Assembly (NCBI RefSeq): GCF_003600155.1
Contig: NZ_QWLD01000056.1
Coordinates: 1 to 64,000 of the forward strand
Source: Nesterenkonia muleiensis
Lineage (GTDB): Bacteria; Actinomycetota; Actinomycetes; Actinomycetales; Micrococcaceae
DNA length: 64,000 nt
Direction: 5' to 3'
Positions within the stretch are counted from its first letter, which is position 1. Every line of letters starts with the position of its first letter. A program made the position numbers and the translations under genes. The notes under the pieces are model-generated. The model was given only the letters and a program-made list of their open reading frames with translations, had not been told where the DNA came from and searched no databases. This document shows positions 1,987-10,875 of the stretch, piece after piece.

Positions 1987-3261
1987 CTACGGTCCCAACA
2001 TCGCCAGCGGCACCACGCCGATTCCGTCTTCGCGCCGATAAGCCCCCTGGCCGGTGGTGATGAGGAGCGCATCAGTCAAGCGCGCCCCCAGCTGGGCTCG
2101 AAGCCATTTAAGGTGTTTGAAGTCCTTGTTCTCTGGCACTGCGGTGGCTTTGATCTCAATGGCAACCAGGCTTTCGTCATGACCCTCGATGATCAGGTCG
2201 ACCTCATGGTCGCCGTTGCGTGTTCGCATATGCCGCACCTCGGCCTCGACGGCCTGAGCCGCCACGCGGATGCATAGGGTAGCAAATGACTCAAAGAAGT
2301 TGCCGAGAAGGCTTCCACGTGGTGGATTGATTCCATGTTGACCCCGTAGGAGTTTCTCAGGTGTGAGCTGGAGCAGCTGCGCAGCGAGTGCCGGGTCCGC
2401 CAGGTGATGTTTTGGGCCAGTGTAGAGTCGATCGATGGGAATCCCGCGTGGATGCCACGCGTCAACGGGATCTACAATCCAGATTTGACGGAGCAGATCG
2501 CGGTATTTGTCGAGTGTGTCACGGGCTGGGGGGTCCGAATCCCCGGGGGTGGCTTGATCGATGATGGTCTTATAGCTGGCCGTCGTTGCTGAACTGAGTG
2601 CATAGCTTCGTAACCAGTCGAGGAGGACCTCCCGGCGTCGCACGGTTTCGCCGAGTTCAGGAATATCCCGGTCGACGATGTTGTGTAGGTATGAGGAGAG
2701 ATCCTTGCGTCGGTTCCGTTCCGGCGAGGATCGAATATCGGGAAAGCCAGACCGGCAAAGCTCCTGGATATAGTCGCGCAGAGTGAGGGTGGAACGTCCG
2801 GAAAGGCTTGCTGGAGGTTCGTAGAGGAGCTTTCGGAGACTGACTACCGGTTCGCTCACGCCTCGTTCGGAGAGTGTCATGGGGCGCATGCGCATGCGGA
2901 TGATTCGGCCAGCTCCGCTGTGAGCTGTGGTTCCGGGGGAAGGGCTGGCGCTGCCTGTCAGTAGATACTTACCCTCGCGTGTCGGAGCTGCATCTACGGC
3001 TCGCCGAACGGCATCCCAGACAGCCGGTACATTCTGCCATTCGTCGATCAGCGTGGGAGTGGGTTCGTTGAAGATGGCGTCGAAGGGGTCAGCGCCTACG
3101 AGTTCTCTGGTGGCGGGGTTGTCCAGGGCGAGAACGTTCTTGACGCGTTGGTGCGCTGTGGTGGTCTTCCCCACGAACTTTGGGCCGTCTAGTGCGATGG
3201 CAGGAGTGCTGGGAAACAGCTCGTCGAGCTCGTCGTCGACGGTTCGCCTCATATACGCCAT
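1987..3261 (-). CDS. AAA ATPase with DUF4143-type C terminus
   Basis: The gene encodes 424 aa of the common ATP-binding family with an AAA_14-like N terminus and a DUF4143 C terminus. A P-loop variant GPKFVGKTTT is at about residues 25-34. TLIDEWQNVP at about 90-100 is the Walker B region, LLTGSASP follows as the sensor, and the C-terminal part (about 330-410) carries the nuclease-like VDLIIEG...AIEIKA segment. The D and the ExK of that segment are what a PD-(D/E)xK-like fold would show. Cellular roles in this family are poorly established; many members look like accessory or defence genes. It stands alone, with an AT-rich upstream region that contrasts with its neighbours and suggests acquisition by transfer. 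Confidence 0.85.
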   Translation of the reverse strand: MAYMRRTVDDELDELFPSTPAIALDGPKFVGKTTTAHQRVKNVLALDNPATRELVGADPFDAIFNEPTPTLIDEWQNVPAVWDAVRRAVDAAPTREGKYLLTGSASPSPGTTAHSGAGRIIRMRMRPMTLSERGVSEPVVSLRKLLYEPPASLSGRSTLTLRDYIQELCRSGFPDIRSSPERNRRKDLSSYLHNIVDRDIPELGETVRRREVLLDWLRSYALSSATTASYKTIIDQATPGDSDPPARDTLDKYRDLLRQIWIVDPVDAWHPRGIPIDRLYTGPKHHLADPALAAQLLQLTPEKLLRGQHGINPPRGSLLGNFFESFATLCIRVAAQAVEAEVRHMRTRNGDHEVDLIIEGHDESLVAIEIKATAVPENKDFKHLKWLRAQLGARLTDALLITTGQGAYRREDGIGVVPLAMLGP

Positions 3262-3272
3262 AGAGAGACCTC

Positions 3273-3297
3273 GCTATTCGGAGGATAGCAGCATCCT
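3273..3297. promoter_or_regulatory. Nested inverted repeats upstream of the ATPase gene
   Basis: GCTAT/ATAGC (3273-3277, 3285-3289) and AGGAT/ATCCT (3282-3286, 3293-3297) overlap in an AT-rich stretch directly upstream of the minus-strand ATPase start. This could be an operator or promoter region. The arms are short, so the call is weak. Confidence 0.3.
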
Positions 3298-3502
3298 AAA
3301 CCTGATGTTAGCAGTATTCCTATTAGGACGATAGCAGGTTTTAAAGATGCCAGAAGGAGGCGTAGGAAGAGGCGGCGAACGTTGCCGAAAAGGGGTCGGT
3401 CTCCTCCCGAGATGTTCTCTGGATTGCGCAGAATGGCAATCCGCAGCCGATGCGGGTGTGAGCAGTCTGCATGGTCGATATCCTGGACGGATGCTCGGAC
3501 AG

Positions 3503-4096
3503 ATGGTGATCAGAGAAGCGGAAGCCGGCGATGCGGAGCGGATTGGGCTCGCGCATTCGATCGCCGCGAATGAGGCTTACGGACATTACTTCCCGTCAGA
3601 GTGGATGGCTGAGCGCAATACCCCTGCCAAGCGCGCTGAGCAGTGGACCCAGACGTTGCGGGACTACGTTTCGGGCATCTCGGGCGTTGTGCCGTCGTCG
3701 GCGGCCTTATCGGATGGGTACTGCGGAGGCTTGAGTGGACAGAGCAGCGAATGCGGCGCGACCACGAGCACGGGGCAGCCGCAGCGGATTCTTCTTGCAG
3801 AGGACGGCGACCGTGTGCTCGGGTTCGGCATCTTCGGCGCCGCCCGGGAGGATGACGCCCCTTTCCCGCATGAACTGCACCGGCTCTACGTGCTCGCGCA
3901 GACCTACGGAACCGGGTTGGCACACAGGCTGCTGACCGCCGTGCACCCGGAGCGGACGCCGTCGTACCTGTGGGTTATGCAGGCCAACACCCGTGCCATC
4001 GCGTTCTACCGCAAGCACGGATTCGAGCCCGACGGCGCGGTGGAGCATTTGGTCACTATCGCCAATCTTCCCAAGATCCGGATGGTGCGCCCATAG
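3503..4096 (+). CDS. GNAT-family N-acetyltransferase (paralogue 1)
   Basis: This encodes about 198 aa of the GNAT fold (acetyl-CoA-dependent acyl transfer, substrate unknown). It starts MVIREAEAGDAERI (beta-1), and carries LYVLAQTYGTGLAHRLL (acetyl-CoA loop, Q/RxxGxG/A type) and a C-terminal AIAFYRKHGFEPDGA motif. Compared with the relative at 5381-5893 it has an extra, low-complexity Ser/Gly/Thr segment of about 25 residues before the core strand. The start at 3503 is inferred from homology; 3491 is an alternative ATG and the frame is open back to 3347. Upstream ribosome binding signals are weak. Confidence 0.75.
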   Translation: MVIREAEAGDAERIGLAHSIAANEAYGHYFPSEWMAERNTPAKRAEQWTQTLRDYVSGISGVVPSSAALSDGYCGGLSGQSSECGATTSTGQPQRILLAEDGDRVLGFGIFGAAREDDAPFPHELHRLYVLAQTYGTGLAHRLLTAVHPERTPSYLWVMQANTRAIAFYRKHGFEPDGAVEHLVTIANLPKIRMVRP

Positions 4097-4104
4097 CAAC
4101 ACGG

Positions 4105-4127
4105 ACAACGGTGAGATAAACTGTTGT
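4105..4127. promoter_or_regulatory. Candidate TA operator
   Basis: ACAAC (4105-4109) and GTTGT (4123-4127) form an inverted repeat (extended arms match 6 of 7) just upstream of the RES toxin-antitoxin operon, within the expected promoter. Antitoxins of this family repress their own promoter, so this is the natural site to test. Confidence 0.4.
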
Positions 4128-4152
4128 ATGCGTAGGTTCAGGAGGTGGTGAG

Positions 4153-4698
4153 ATGACGACGACCGTCGAGATCCCGGTGCCGGAGAACATGAGCCCGGAG
4201 GAAGCACGGCACCTGGCTGAGGATCTGCTCCAGCGTCGGTCTGCGTTCGCAGATTTCGCGCGGGATGTGGAGTTGAAGCCTGACCTCGTCCACCCTTCGG
4301 TGGCGTGGCACGTGGTGGCGGTGGACCACATGTGGCGCAAACTCATCGATAAGTACGGGGTCTACACCTCTGCAGATATTGCACGGTTGCGCGGAGCCAA
4401 CCCGCAGAACCGTTCGGTGGCGACCAATCTGGCCAAGCGGGAGAACATCCTCAGCTTCACCCGCGCCGGTAAGAAGCTCTATCCCCGTTTCCAGTTCAAG
4501 GGAGACCGTGCGCATCCTGAGTGGAAACACATTGTGGAACCTCTGCTCAATGCGGGGTGGGATTCCCAGGATATTCTGCTCTGGTTGACCGGACCCAATG
4601 GGGCGATCGACGGCCGGGAGCCTGCTGAACTTATTGGAACCGATGAGGTGAACAAGGTCATCACCGATGCTGAGGATGAGGCGAAGGGGATCTGGTGA
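4153..4698 (+). CDS. MbcA/ParS/Xre-type antitoxin
   Basis: This is the probable antitoxin (181 aa) for the RES toxin that follows. The C-terminal part (about residues 123-165) contains EWKHIVEPLLNAGW followed by LLWLTGPNGAIDGREPAELI, the arrangement of the DUF2384 antitoxin C-terminal (toxin-binding) domain, with the typical WL..PN..L.GR.P.EL pattern. The middle part (about 65-100, YTSADIARLRGANPQNRS) looks like a DNA-binding helical region. An AGGAGGT site lies about 10 nt before the ATG. The stop overlaps the toxin start (GTGA), so the two are translationally coupled. Confidence 0.8.
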   Translation: MTTTVEIPVPENMSPEEARHLAEDLLQRRSAFADFARDVELKPDLVHPSVAWHVVAVDHMWRKLIDKYGVYTSADIARLRGANPQNRSVATNLAKRENILSFTRAGKKLYPRFQFKGDRAHPEWKHIVEPLLNAGWDSQDILLWLTGPNGAIDGREPAELIGTDEVNKVITDAEDEAKGIW

Positions 4699-5339
4699 CC
4701 TGGCCAGAACCCGGTGCTGACTTCACTCCACTGACAGAGACGTTGCCGACTGGCTCGCTGCTCTTCCGGGTGCATAGTGCTCAGTTTCCCGACGGCACCC
4801 TCAATGACGGCACTGCGTTCAATCCCGGATATGGACGGAGCGCACGGTTCTCGTTCTTCGGCGAGCCGACAGTGCCGGTGCTCTATGCTGCGACGAGTCC
4901 TGAGGTGGCGGTGCACGAGACTATCCTGCGGAACGCCGAGCCCGGAAGCGCGCTGGTGCCGGTGGCCTGGAGAAACCAGATGCTGTCGGTGATCGAGGTG
5001 CGTGAAGACGTGCAGCTGGCCGCTTTTCACGGGGCAGGGCTACGGCGTCTTGGACTGTTTCCCCGCGACCTGACCGATACGCCTAAAAAGGCTTACCCCT
5101 CCACGGTGAAGTGGGCGGAGGCTGCATGGCAGAAAGGCTTGGGCGGTGTGGTCTATATGCCTCGGCACTTCAACTCGGCCACAGCATTCTGTCTCTTCGG
5201 CGATCGAGTATCTGACGAGGCGCTCTCAGTGCATAAGAAGCATCCTGCATCCCGTCTGTTCGATACCTCAGACGATGTGGTGTGGCTGGCGGAGGTCGCA
5301 CGAGCGGTGAATGTCCGGCTCCGCAGTTTCGACTGGTGA
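4695..5339 (+). CDS. RES-domain toxin (NAD+ phosphorylase family)
   Basis: The gene encodes a 214-aa RES-domain protein. Characterised RES toxins (such as mycobacterial MbcT) degrade NAD+ by phosphorolysis or hydrolysis. The family residues are present: Arg in LLFRVH (R25), Tyr in LYAA (Y64), Glu in VAVHETIL (E75) and Ser in RHFNSATAFCLFG (S161). The toxin starts with GTG inside the antitoxin stop, as expected for a toxin-antitoxin pair. All catalytic positions are intact, unlike the relic at 8023-8418, which aligns with its C-terminal half. Confidence 0.88.
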   Translation: MTWPEPGADFTPLTETLPTGSLLFRVHSAQFPDGTLNDGTAFNPGYGRSARFSFFGEPTVPVLYAATSPEVAVHETILRNAEPGSALVPVAWRNQMLSVIEVREDVQLAAFHGAGLRRLGLFPRDLTDTPKKAYPSTVKWAEAAWQKGLGGVVYMPRHFNSATAFCLFGDRVSDEALSVHKKHPASRLFDTSDDVVWLAEVARAVNVRLRSFDW

Positions 5340-7477: not shown

Positions 7478-8418
7478 GTGTTGCTGGCCATGAGGTTGTT
7501 GACGTTGTCCCCGCGCAAGGCGATCATGCCATTCACGCACTTCTTGATTCGGTCGTGACCGCATTGCGGTCCGAGGGGAACAGCACCGTCCGCTATGTTC
7601 GCAACCCGCCGATTGTGCCGGTGCGGGAGAACTATGACCGCCTCGGCTATGACTCGCGTGACGTCACACGAGACCGCCGATACACCCGTTATCTGAGCCC
7701 GACGGTGATGCTCCGCAGTCACACTGGTGCAGAGCTTCCGAGAGCCCTCGAAGACTATGCCGGAGGAACGAGTGTCGATGAGCTCATCGTGGCCCCGGGG
7801 TTGGTCTACCGGCGCGACGCTGTTGATCGCAGTCATGTCGGCGAGCCGCACCAGGTCGATCTCTGGCGCATCCGTAGCGTTTCGGACACCGAGGACGGAG
7901 ACATGCTGAGGATGATCGGAGGTCTCGTTGAGGCGGTACTTCCTGGGGCGGAGTGGAAGGTGACTGATGCCGAGCACCCCTACACGGCTGGTGGTCGGCG
8001 GATCGACGTGCTCCACGAGGGAACTCGGCTGCCGCTCACCGAGCTGTCACTGCGGGCGATCACCCGGCTTGAAGTGATTCGCCCCTTGAGACTGGTGTCC
8101 TACCGCAGCGCCGGGCTCGGCCGCTTCGGCCTGCACCCGCGGGACCTCACCGACACTCTGGCCGATGAGTACCCGCGGACGGTCACCTGGGCGGAGGCCG
8201 CCTGGGAGTATGGCGCCGACGGCGTGGCGTACCTGTGCCGGCACTTCAACGGGAAGACCGCCTACTGCCTGTTCGGAGCCGACCACAGCAAGACTCTGAA
8301 GGCGCAGCAGGGCTGGCCGCCCCGGCGCCATCCCACCCTGCTGCAGTGGGACCGGGACTGGCTCGTCGAGGTCGCAGCCCAAGTGGGTGTCCACATCGAC
8401 ATCACCAGTTGGCGATGA
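7478..8418 (+). pseudogene. Chimeric relic: class II aaRS-like fragment fused to RES C-terminal half
   Basis: An open frame runs from the relE stop to 8418; the first usable start is GTG 7555, but homologous-looking protein (HEVVDVVPAQGDHAIHALLD) is already encoded from 7477, so the 5' end is missing. Residues up to about 156 (counting from 7555) resemble a PheS-like class II tRNA-synthetase core: MLRSHTGAELPRAL, APGLVYRRDAVDRSH and GEPHQVDLWRI are the motif-2 neighbourhood. From about nt 8023 the protein switches to the back half of a RES domain (GLGRFGLHPRDLTDTLADEYP, RHFNGKTAYCLFG), aligning with the intact toxin at 4695-5339. The RES Arg, Tyr and Glu are absent and its Ser is Gly, so no RES activity is expected. 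Confidence 0.7.
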
Positions 8419-8644: not shown

Positions 8645-9682
8645 ATGGCAGTAGTGCGGGATTCGCTGGGTGCGCAGAGGCTGATCGAGGACCATCCCGC
8701 CCTGAGCCTGCTGCGATCGCAGAACGCGCCGGTCGCGGTGGCCATTCTGGGTGAGCACCTGGCCGGTGAGCGAAGGCAGATGCCCGCCGCCGACCTCTTT
8801 GAAGCCGTTGAGGCAGATCTCACCGAGCTTCGCGACACCGGCCAGTTCGACCTCCCCCAGACCGCAGTGCAGTACGTCCGCTCCTGGCTGACCCAGGGGT
8901 TCCTCATCCGCCGCTCTGGTGAGACTCGGCAGGAGGTCTACGCGCTCTCCGACGGTGCCCTGGGAGCCATCAGGTTCATCCAGGAGCTGGGCACCCCGCG
9001 CACCAGTGTGACCGAATCCCGCCTGTCCACCATCGTGGACCGGGTACACCGGCTGGCTGTGGACACCGACCCGGACATCACCCGCCGGGTGGAGGCCCTC
9101 AGGGAAGAGCGGCGCAAGCTGGACGAACGCATCGCCGCACTGGAGGCCGGTGAGATCGAGACGATGCCTGAACACGCTGCCGCCGAACAGGCCACAGATA
9201 TCCTGGCCCTGGCTTCGGAGCTTCCCGAAGACTTCGCCCGGCTGCGCACCGAGCTGGAGGAGATCAACCGCCGGTTGCGCGCTAAGCTCATCGAGGAGCC
9301 GGCCTCCCGCGGCACTGTGCTGGAAGACATCTTCCGCGGCGTTGACCTGCTCCAAGAGTCTGATGCGGGGAAGTCCTTCACCGCTTTCTACACGCTCATT
9401 CTGGACCCCGAGCGCACCGCGGCCCTGGAGGACTATGTGGGCGGCATCGTGCTGGTCACCTCCCCAGATGGGAGGTACTCCTACCTCTCACCGGTGAGCA
9501 TCGACGACGACAGGCTGGCAGCCGGCCGGCAGGCACAGAATGCGCCGGAGGACGGTGCCACTGAACAGGCCGACCCTGAGTCAACGGATTCTGGGCAGAA
9601 CGGCCGGGCCGCCGATGAGACCGACACCACGGAGACTGAGTCCGGGGACAGTGAGCACCAGGCACTGTTCGAGGTGAACTGA
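8645..9682 (+). CDS. jetA: Shortened Wadjet JetA (DUF3375), possible jetA-jetC fusion
   Basis: The first ~260 residues match DUF3375/JetA, the kleisin-like subunit of the Wadjet plasmid-defence condensin: ALSLLRSQNAPVAVAIL, a winged-helix region (YVRSWLTQGFLIRR), a coiled coil (about 145-215), and SRGTVLEDIFRGVDLLQESDAGKSFTAF. Family members are usually about 480 aa; this one is 345 aa. From about residue 263 (nt ~9434) the sequence becomes YVGGIVLVTSPDGRYSY followed by a low-complexity acidic tail, which looks more like the extreme C terminus of the SMC-like JetC than JetA. The stop overlaps jetD (TGATG), the junction expected between jetC and jetD. I infer one deletion from within jetA across jetB to the end of jetC. 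Confidence 0.75.
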   Translation: MAVVRDSLGAQRLIEDHPALSLLRSQNAPVAVAILGEHLAGERRQMPAADLFEAVEADLTELRDTGQFDLPQTAVQYVRSWLTQGFLIRRSGETRQEVYALSDGALGAIRFIQELGTPRTSVTESRLSTIVDRVHRLAVDTDPDITRRVEALREERRKLDERIAALEAGEIETMPEHAAAEQATDILALASELPEDFARLRTELEEINRRLRAKLIEEPASRGTVLEDIFRGVDLLQESDAGKSFTAFYTLILDPERTAALEDYVGGIVLVTSPDGRYSYLSPVSIDDDRLAAGRQAQNAPEDGATEQADPESTDSGQNGRAADETDTTETESGDSEHQALFEVN

Positions 9683-10875
9683 TGGTCACCCCGGAGGACG
9701 CCGCAGAGCGGATCGGACGGCTCTACGAACGCAAGCACCCCGAATGGGCGGTGGCCGGGGCAGCCGAACCTGTGGTCGACATCCCCCTGCACCCGCCGAC
9801 CCAGGAGCAGGTGCTCGCCGAGACCACGTCCGCGGCAGACTGGATCGCCGCCTGGCGGCGGGCCGAACGCGGGCTCGGCGACGGTGGACGAGTGATCTGG
9901 GAGACCCGCCAGTGGGCCAGCGCGGGATCCCAGCGCATGCCGGTGCGGCTGGTGCTCGCCGAACCCTACGACGCCGCCGGGTTCATCAGACGCAAAGGGC
10001 ACTGGCAGGCCGCAGAATCACGCACCGCTGAGCTGGCCGGACTGCTCGGTGTCCACGGCGCGGCCCCGGGCAGCGCCCTGGTGGAGACGGTGCAGGAGGC
10101 CCTGCGGCGGCGGGTCAAACGGATCGCAGATCTGGACCAGGCCGAATACCTCCGGGTCCGCGAGGCCCTGGTCTGGCTGCTGCAGAACCCGCAACCGGGG
10201 ATCTACCCGCGCCAGATGCCCATCCGTGGGGTGGACAGCAAATGGCTGGAGAGGCACTCCGCCCTGGTGGAGCCGCTCTACGCCAGCGCTTCCGGACGTC
10301 CCTCGCTGGGCCTGCTCACACCCCCAGGGCTGATGCGGCTGCGGTTCCTGGACCCAGCGCTGGCACCCGGCGGGATCACCGATCTCAGCTCCCCGCCTCA
10401 GGAGCTGGACCGGCTGGCAGAGCAGATGTGGGAGCTGCGGGCGGTGCTGGTGGTGGAGAACCTCCAGACCCTGCTGGCACTGCCGCGGTGGGACGGCGTC
10501 GTCGCCATCCACAACTCCGGGTATGCCGTCAAAGCCCTGGCCAGCATCGACTGGCTGCACCAGGCGCAGATCCTCTACTGGGGCGATCTGGACGTCGACG
10601 GATTCCAGATGCTGTCCATGATCCGCCAGAGGCTCCCGCAGACCACCTCAGCTCTGATGGACCGCGCCACGCTCAAGGCACACCTGGACCTGGCCGGTCC
10701 TGACCGCAAAGACGCGCCACGGGCCATTCCGGAGCACCTGACTGGAGCGGAGCGGGACGGGTTCGCCGCGCTGGCCGACCACGGCGGGATCAGGCTGGAG
10801 CAGGAGAGGATCCCCTGGGAGTACGCCCTGGAGCGGCTGAACCAGGCGCTGCCGGGGGAAGCGGGGCTCAGCTGA
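9682..10875 (+). CDS. jetD: Wadjet JetD (DUF3322/DUF2220, Toprim-like)
   Basis: This encodes a 397-aa JetD, the topoisomerase VI-like nuclease subunit that cuts plasmid DNA in Wadjet. Seen in order: N-terminal DUF3322 region; MPIRGVDSKWLERH (about 176-189), a hallmark of the family; VVVENLQTLL (about 256-265); ILYWGDLDVDGFQML with the acidic Toprim-type DxD (about 296-310); and a C-terminal QERIPWEYALERL. It looks full length and intact, but its partners JetB and JetC are not encoded nearby. Its last bases overlap the end of the convergent mrpE gene by 8 nt. Confidence 0.85.
   Translation: MVTPEDAAERIGRLYERKHPEWAVAGAAEPVVDIPLHPPTQEQVLAETTSAADWIAAWRRAERGLGDGGRVIWETRQWASAGSQRMPVRLVLAEPYDAAGFIRRKGHWQAAESRTAELAGLLGVHGAAPGSALVETVQEALRRRVKRIADLDQAEYLRVREALVWLLQNPQPGIYPRQMPIRGVDSKWLERHSALVEPLYASASGRPSLGLLTPPGLMRLRFLDPALAPGGITDLSSPPQELDRLAEQMWELRAVLVVENLQTLLALPRWDGVVAIHNSGYAVKALASIDWLHQAQILYWGDLDVDGFQMLSMIRQRLPQTTSALMDRATLKAHLDLAGPDRKDAPRAIPEHLTGAERDGFAALADHGGIRLEQERIPWEYALERLNQALPGEAGLS

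Follow-up and report, generated by a model that had tools for sequence, protein, structure and literature searches.

What becomes of a Wadjet nuclease when the motor that switches it on is gone? The question is raised by a locus of Nesterenkonia muleiensis, in the first 64,000 nucleotides of contig NZ_QWLD01000056.1 (forward strand; this whole stretch is the window referred to below). The preliminary description, made from the letters alone, read the locus as a jetA-type gene joined to jetD, with jetB and jetC lost through one deletion from mid-jetA to late jetC. It left two outcomes: a dead defence island, or a truncated JetA plus a JetD nuclease kept for another use.

Some biochemistry frames the question. 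Wadjet depends on JetABC to locate and extrude small circles of DNA and to activate JetD; JetD alone cleaves only at high concentration and unspecifically, according to the accessible text of PMC10586767. The C. glutamicum relative MksG is reported to cut DNA in vitro without MksBEF, and its binding to MksF was shown by biolayer interferometry (accessible text of PMC10123090). C. glutamicum MksBEFG keeps its SMC, kleisin and KITE partners, unlike the N. muleiensis locus (same source).

The fusion frame and the ancestral operon

The frame that precedes jetD (Table 1) begins as JetA. Its residues 1-267 match the PADLOC JetA1 profile at 1-267 of 487 (E 1.4e-102), residues 12-266 match Pfam DUF3375 at 1-257 of 474 (E 1.5e-86), and the identity to the JetAs of both sister species, N. 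sedimenti and N. alkaliphila, is 77% over 260 residues. It ends as JetC. Residues 255-291 match the extreme C terminus of the PADLOC JetC1 profile (1067-1104 of 1112, E 8e-4), and the tail is 74% identical to N. sedimenti JetC over 35 residues, so that the resemblance noted in the preliminary description is borne out. Residues 1-263 track N. sedimenti JetA; L261-E262-D263 are common to JetA and JetC; and from Y264 the fusion tracks N. sedimenti JetC from Y1085 to the stop. The end of the JetA match had been placed near residue 262, right to within a residue or two, and residues 264-345 do not follow JetA. The retained JetA part is thus residues 1 to about 263 of about 490, and a complete kleisin is absent. 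The JetC tail is 67 residues long in N. sedimenti and 82 in N. muleiensis, the extra residues lying in the variable tail.

Table 1. Features of the window around the truncated Wadjet locus.
Feature	Position	Strand	Remarks
Fusion ORF JetA'-'JetC	8645-9682	+	345 aa; overlaps jetD
jetA', codons 1-260 of jetA (N-terminal kleisin part, DUF3375)	8645..9424	+	PADLOC and Pfam matches
Deletion junction, CTGGAGGAC (Leu-Glu-Asp)	9425..9433	+	6-9 nt direct repeat; jetA and jetC in the same phase
'jetC, C-terminal end of jetC through the stop	9434..9682	+	PADLOC JetC1; N. sedimenti JetC
jetD, complete, Toprim nuclease	9682..10875	+	397 aa; PADLOC JetD1, Pfam DUF3322 and JetD_C
Chimeric ORF just upstream of jetA	7555-8418	+	PheS-like and RES parts
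RES-domain gene	4695-5339	+	Pfam RES, E 2.9e-13
Probable toxin-antitoxin pair	4153-5339	+	

JetD itself is intact, as first described. It matches PADLOC JetD1 over its full length (E 1.2e-109) and both Pfam domains, and an alignment of full-length JetDs shows that R177, K187, E259, D302 and D304 are kept, the Toprim metal-binding residues included. Its best solved relative is C. glutamicum MksG (PDB 8b7f), aligned over 32-391 (E 1.4e-43) with the metal-binding glutamate in register. The fusion stop and the jetD start overlap in TGATG, again as claimed.

The loss of jetB and jetC, likewise claimed, extends to the whole genome (3.68 Mb, 57 contigs, 98% complete). The search found one JetA, one JetD and, as the sole jetC match, the fusion tail. 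No jetB (KITE subunit) was matched in the genome by a query that does match two others (G020 and G003). No second jetC (SMC ATPase) was found there besides the C-terminal tail, which lacks the MDEAFDKAD stretch that stands at residue 1044 of N. sedimenti JetC and that we take to be Walker B.

Intact type I Wadjet operons occupy the same place in two species of the genus. In N. sedimenti (L009) and N. alkaliphila (L010) a complete jetA-jetB-jetC-jetD precedes the Mrp antiporter genes that also follow the N. muleiensis locus, and the JetDs of both species are 68-69% identical to that of N. muleiensis. N. sedimenti shares both flanks: GNAT and fpg before, Mrp antiporter genes after. N. alkaliphila shares the Mrp flank; GNAT and fpg were not seen within the stretch fetched. 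Against these operons, N. muleiensis lacks jetB, the second half of jetA and nearly all of jetC. (In a further genome, G010, matches to the fpg near jetA, at 5600-6760 of L047, fall in several frames and are partly doubled, as though the gene were broken or misassembled.)

In N. sedimenti the joined points lie 4707 bp apart, a multiple of three, at jetA codon 261 and jetC codon 1082. Both breakpoints sit on CTGGAG(G/A)AC, and the jetA and jetC copies are identical over 6 nt in N. sedimenti and 9 nt in N. alkaliphila. The fusion is, on these alignments, an in-frame jetA::jetC deletion, with about 4.7 kb missing relative to N. sedimenti. A single event, a deletion between short direct repeats, accounts at once for the fused frame, for the absent genes and for the retained jetD overlap. 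The relatives with an undamaged jetABCD in this place and the direct repeat at the join thus support the single deletion first proposed.

Age of the deletion and shorter stumps

Over the retained part, the nearest full-length JetAs, P0001 and P0002, show 91% and 89% identity. Another, P0098 (its first residues are missing), agrees at all 38 residues that precede the junction and runs on past it as an ordinary JetA. Relative-rate tests of the JetA part against P0001 and P0002, with five outgroups, placed 5-11 changes on the N. muleiensis branch and 7-15 on the other (chi-square <=2.6); for JetD against P0101, with six outgroups, the counts were 14-25 and 13-24 (chi-square <=3.8). These tests found no excess change on the N. 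muleiensis branch in either protein. Among sites invariant in nine relatives, the JetA part has changed at 2 of 150 and JetD at 1 of 135.

Pairwise codon maximum likelihood gave a JetA omega of about 0.05 where dS was finite and moderate: 0.054 for N. muleiensis and N. alkaliphila (dS 2.6), 0.052 for N. muleiensis and G010 (dS 2.0), and 0.050 for N. sedimenti and N. alkaliphila (dS 0.9). Most other pairs, N. muleiensis-N. sedimenti included, were saturated. Because dS is mostly saturated, dN/dS can neither date the deletion nor test the period after it. The deletion looks recent relative to the splits from P0001, P0002, P0101 and P0098. If so, an undamaged JetD would be expected whether it is still useful or not.

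The long fusion appears in this genome only. None of the 29 other genus genomes carries the two-gene architecture, and the full fusion is absent among 99 protein matches (best query coverage, 82%). Conserved two-gene jetA-jetD loci of this form, which would have spoken against the deletion account, were found neither among the 30 genus genomes nor among those 99 matches.

Two shorter stumps are comparable. In G027, of the same genus and again flanked by these fpg and Mrp genes, a 34-codon frame ends in a stop that overlaps the GTG of jetD. Its start is that of jetA: 50 of 78 nt agree with N. alkaliphila, and a targeted comparison gave 48% over 29 columns (E 0.004). Its last codons are assigned to jetC by position only. 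In G411, of another family in the same order, a frame of about 56 codons from the likely start ends in a stop that overlaps the jetD start. Its beginning is JetA (57% against a JetA of its own genus, over 42 columns; E 1.2e-7), and its end matches, by eye, the JetC tail of the sister species G757, G782 and G796, whose JetDs are 89-92% identical to its own. Like N. muleiensis, both loci have a frame that runs from a jetA start to a stop overlapping a full-length jetD. They differ in a far shorter jetA remnant (about 26 codons in G027 and about 32 in G411) and in JetDs that have lost an invariant lysine. These stumps arose separately from the N. muleiensis fusion.

A fourth locus, in Pseudactinotalea terrae (L020/L178, G636), has the same order of parts (a jetA piece, a jetC end and a full-length jetD), but its jetA part is frameshifted and out of frame with jetC. 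Three of the four clear jetA::jetC deletions (N. muleiensis, G027 and G411) are therefore in frame with a stop at the jetD start. At one third each, the probability of three in four by chance is about 0.11, so the excess is suggestive only.

No description of such stumps was found in the open-licence literature. Incomplete loci as such are already known, because plasmid-bearing strains without at least one jet gene are mentioned in the accessible text of PMC12287153. MksBEF complexes without MksG are likewise known as incomplete Wadjet relatives, and loss of JetD is the direction described in the accessible text of PMC10586767. N. muleiensis presents the reverse: the nuclease is kept and the motor lost.

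JetD across the survey

JetD was sought in 395 family genomes (96 with a match, E <= 1e-10) and in 396 order genomes (86 with a match, E <= 1e-30); the order search is stricter and would miss short JetD fragments detectable in the family search. The 93 family and 75 order places fetched, with six further genus loci, gave 99 and 75 classified loci. All of these sets began from JetD searches, and loci without JetD are therefore hidden. By profile coverage, all four jet genes are present at 82 of the 99 family loci and 65 of the 75 order loci. A full-length JetD with clearly broken jetABC was found at four further loci among the 174: G027 (L042), G043 (L118), G636 (L178) and G411 (L208). The remaining incomplete loci are JetD fragments, contig or fetch edges, split jetC frames, one jetC-jetD deletion (L209) and divergent loci. 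Set aside as uninformative were L129, L179 and L198 (contig or fetch ends) and L141 and L147 (fragments); also set aside were L043, L131 and L096 (split jetC frames, possible sequencing errors) and L209, L215, L219 and L226 (JetD broken or divergent, with low profile coverage).

The notion that JetD generally outlives JetABC was rejected, because fourteen loci hold JetD fragments only, so that JetD is lost too. These loci (L140-L151 in the family; L223 and L225) each carry a JetD fragment, in most cases the Toprim half at the C terminus, and lack a complete jetABC of their own. L151 has no profile match in the classification and rests on the initial JetD search; L145 holds a weak jetC piece; and the jetC and full JetD seen at L141 belong to an adjoining intact locus. 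Wadjet remnants are frequent.

Other oddities came to light. At L209 (G443) jetA and jetB are complete, and about 90 codons of the jetC start run into a JetD that lacks its first third. At L198 (G701), jetC and jetD, which elsewhere overlap or nearly touch, lie about 2.2 kb apart (2988 to 5226). P0117, a JetD from a named Nesterenkonia MAG, was found on 82 contigs and is 60% identical to N. muleiensis JetD. JetA-like matches occur in 237 of the 395 family genomes, as against 96 with JetD, and many genomes of the family thus seem to have an MksBEF-like complex but not the nuclease.

Five JetD residues were compared across the loci: the counterparts of MksG R156 and K166, proposed to hold DNA; that of the metal-binding E236 (E248 in E. 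coli chain 8q72); and two Toprim aspartates. The roles of R156, K166 and E236 are those given in the accessible text of PMC10123090, and the correspondence with JetD was read by eye from an alignment with solved structures. None of the 154 comparison rows, 153 of them distinct (L072 and L141 are the same, counted twice), has lost any of the five residues; the rows include L043, L096, L129, L131, L141, L179, L198 and L226, and not all are proven intact loci. In G027 JetD the invariant lysine has become threonine. In G411 the same lysine has become alanine, and the catalytic glutamate aspartate. The JetDs of N. muleiensis, G043 and G636 keep all key residues despite broken jetABC. Loss of a key residue thus occurs at two of five ABC-broken loci versus none of 154 rows (Fisher p 8e-4, uncorrected for phylogeny). 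Close relatives keep the residues (P0118 for G027; G757, G782 and G796 for G411), so the two losses are recent and independent.

The remainder of these proteins was also compared. Between the G027 and P0118 JetDs, 10 of 11 differing sites hold a residue found in <2% of relatives, versus 26 of 77 in control pairs (n=8; p 4e-4); P0118 is known from its protein alone, and the split-jetC locus L043 is part of one of the control pairs. The G411 branch has an omega of 0.188 versus 0.054 (2 delta lnL 9.0), a test that is not clean because the sister G782, with jetC apparently intact in the 1.5 kb seen, shows a similar rise (0.195; 6.2). Of 40 columns conserved against a broad background, five are changed in G411 and two in its intact relative L205. 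G043 JetD is changed at 16 of 58 columns conserved against a narrow background but at 1 of 40 against the broad one; its changes would seem to reflect subfamily distance.

Fate of the locus

Very probably, a type I Wadjet (MksBEFG-like) was inactivated here by one recent deletion of about 4.7 kb between short repeats, and JetD is an idle leftover heading to decay. That deletion would have taken away JetB entirely, together with the latter half of JetA, and would have left only the C-terminal end of the SMC motor JetC. The loop-extruding sensor could then not form: the SMC ATPase and the KITE subunit are missing and only half of the kleisin is left, so plasmid restriction has very probably been lost. 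Because the frame stays open from the start of jetA to the stop of jetC, jetD would remain coupled and is probably still translated. Published biochemistry leads one to expect that JetD without JetABC would be idle, and the two comparable loci, G027 and G411, that it would be on its way to decay. Loss of Wadjet may be favoured where plasmids are useful.

Some observations count against a dead locus: no signs of decay were seen in N. muleiensis JetD or the JetA part; the G636 and G043 JetDs keep their key residues; and MksG is active alone in vitro, according to the accessible text of PMC10123090. Of the two outcomes left by the preliminary description, the dead locus nevertheless gains from the recent deletion and from the residue losses in G027 and G411. 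The kept pair is the less supported, even with G043 and G636 showing no such losses. The dead locus fits best, and the comparison with relatives suggests that decay is at an early stage, not that a new machine has formed.

A two-gene locus that still functions, its JetA stump binding JetD as MksF binds MksG, and serving as a reduced nuclease module or a harmless tether, is very unlikely. The frame is open across the junction, the coupling is kept and the JetD residues are intact, and the C. glutamicum work, as far as its accessible text goes, reports both the MksF-MksG contact and cutting by MksG alone (PMC10123090). By analogy, contact between the stump and JetD is possible. However, that text does not state which part of MksF binds MksG. 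Normal rates of change are expected anyway after a recent deletion; the long fusion is confined to this genome; and the two shorter stumps keep almost no JetA, with JetDs that have lost the invariant lysine. A retained two-gene function is unsupported. An artefact, in which the assembler joined two ends, is extremely unlikely. The genome lies in 57 contigs, but a shared repeat of 6-9 nt is far too short to mislead an assembler, and the missing middle is found nowhere else in the assembly.

Selection might instead have acted repeatedly, first favouring deletions that leave jetD coupled and then disarming JetD, a nuclease without its sensor being a liability. The in-frame joins that stop at the jetD start would fit, as would the independent loss of the same lysine in G027 and G411, with the catalytic glutamate lost as well in G411. 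Moreover, plasmid uptake can rise once Wadjet is lost: in C. cellulovorans, a mutant in which three deletions arose spontaneously, one of them spanning the Wadjet genes, takes up plasmids far better, as reported in the accessible text of PMC12287153. However, three in four in frame has a chance probability of about 0.11, neutral drift accounts equally well for the loss of invariant residues, and G636 is out of frame with its JetD residues kept, as they are in G043. This sequence of selective steps is distinctly improbable. It is also unlikely that in-frame jetA::jetC deletions are a recurring end-state of Wadjet, in which the motor is shed and the coupled JetD is kept for a while (here perhaps held by the stump), then disarmed as a liability at its DNA-contact lysine and catalytic glutamate.

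Inactivation by one recent deletion, followed by decay, therefore remains the preferred reading, and as gene decay the case is ordinary. It stands out a little because in-frame stumps with a coupled jetD recur and because key JetD residues were later lost in two independent lineages. The locus and its intact counterpart form a natural before-and-after pair, in which a plasmid-restricting SMC motor is lost and its nuclease kept, with both site and breakpoint known. Together with the two shorter stumps, it makes testable whether JetD has a cost or a function without JetABC. There is a practical side as well: a pipeline that calls Wadjet from jetA and jetD matches could wrongly score the N. muleiensis genome as defended.

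The upstream neighbourhood holds a second chimera. An ORF just upstream of jetA combines a truncated core of a PheS-like class II aminoacyl-tRNA synthetase with the C-terminal half of a RES-domain protein. The two genes are separate in relatives: PheS-like frames of 378-398 codons are present in G020, G001 and G022, and a whole RES gene stands beside jetA in G010. Farther upstream in the window lies another RES-domain gene, preceded by a 181-aa ORF that looks, by eye, like an antitoxin; together they probably form an intact toxin-antitoxin pair, not far from the broken copy of RES.
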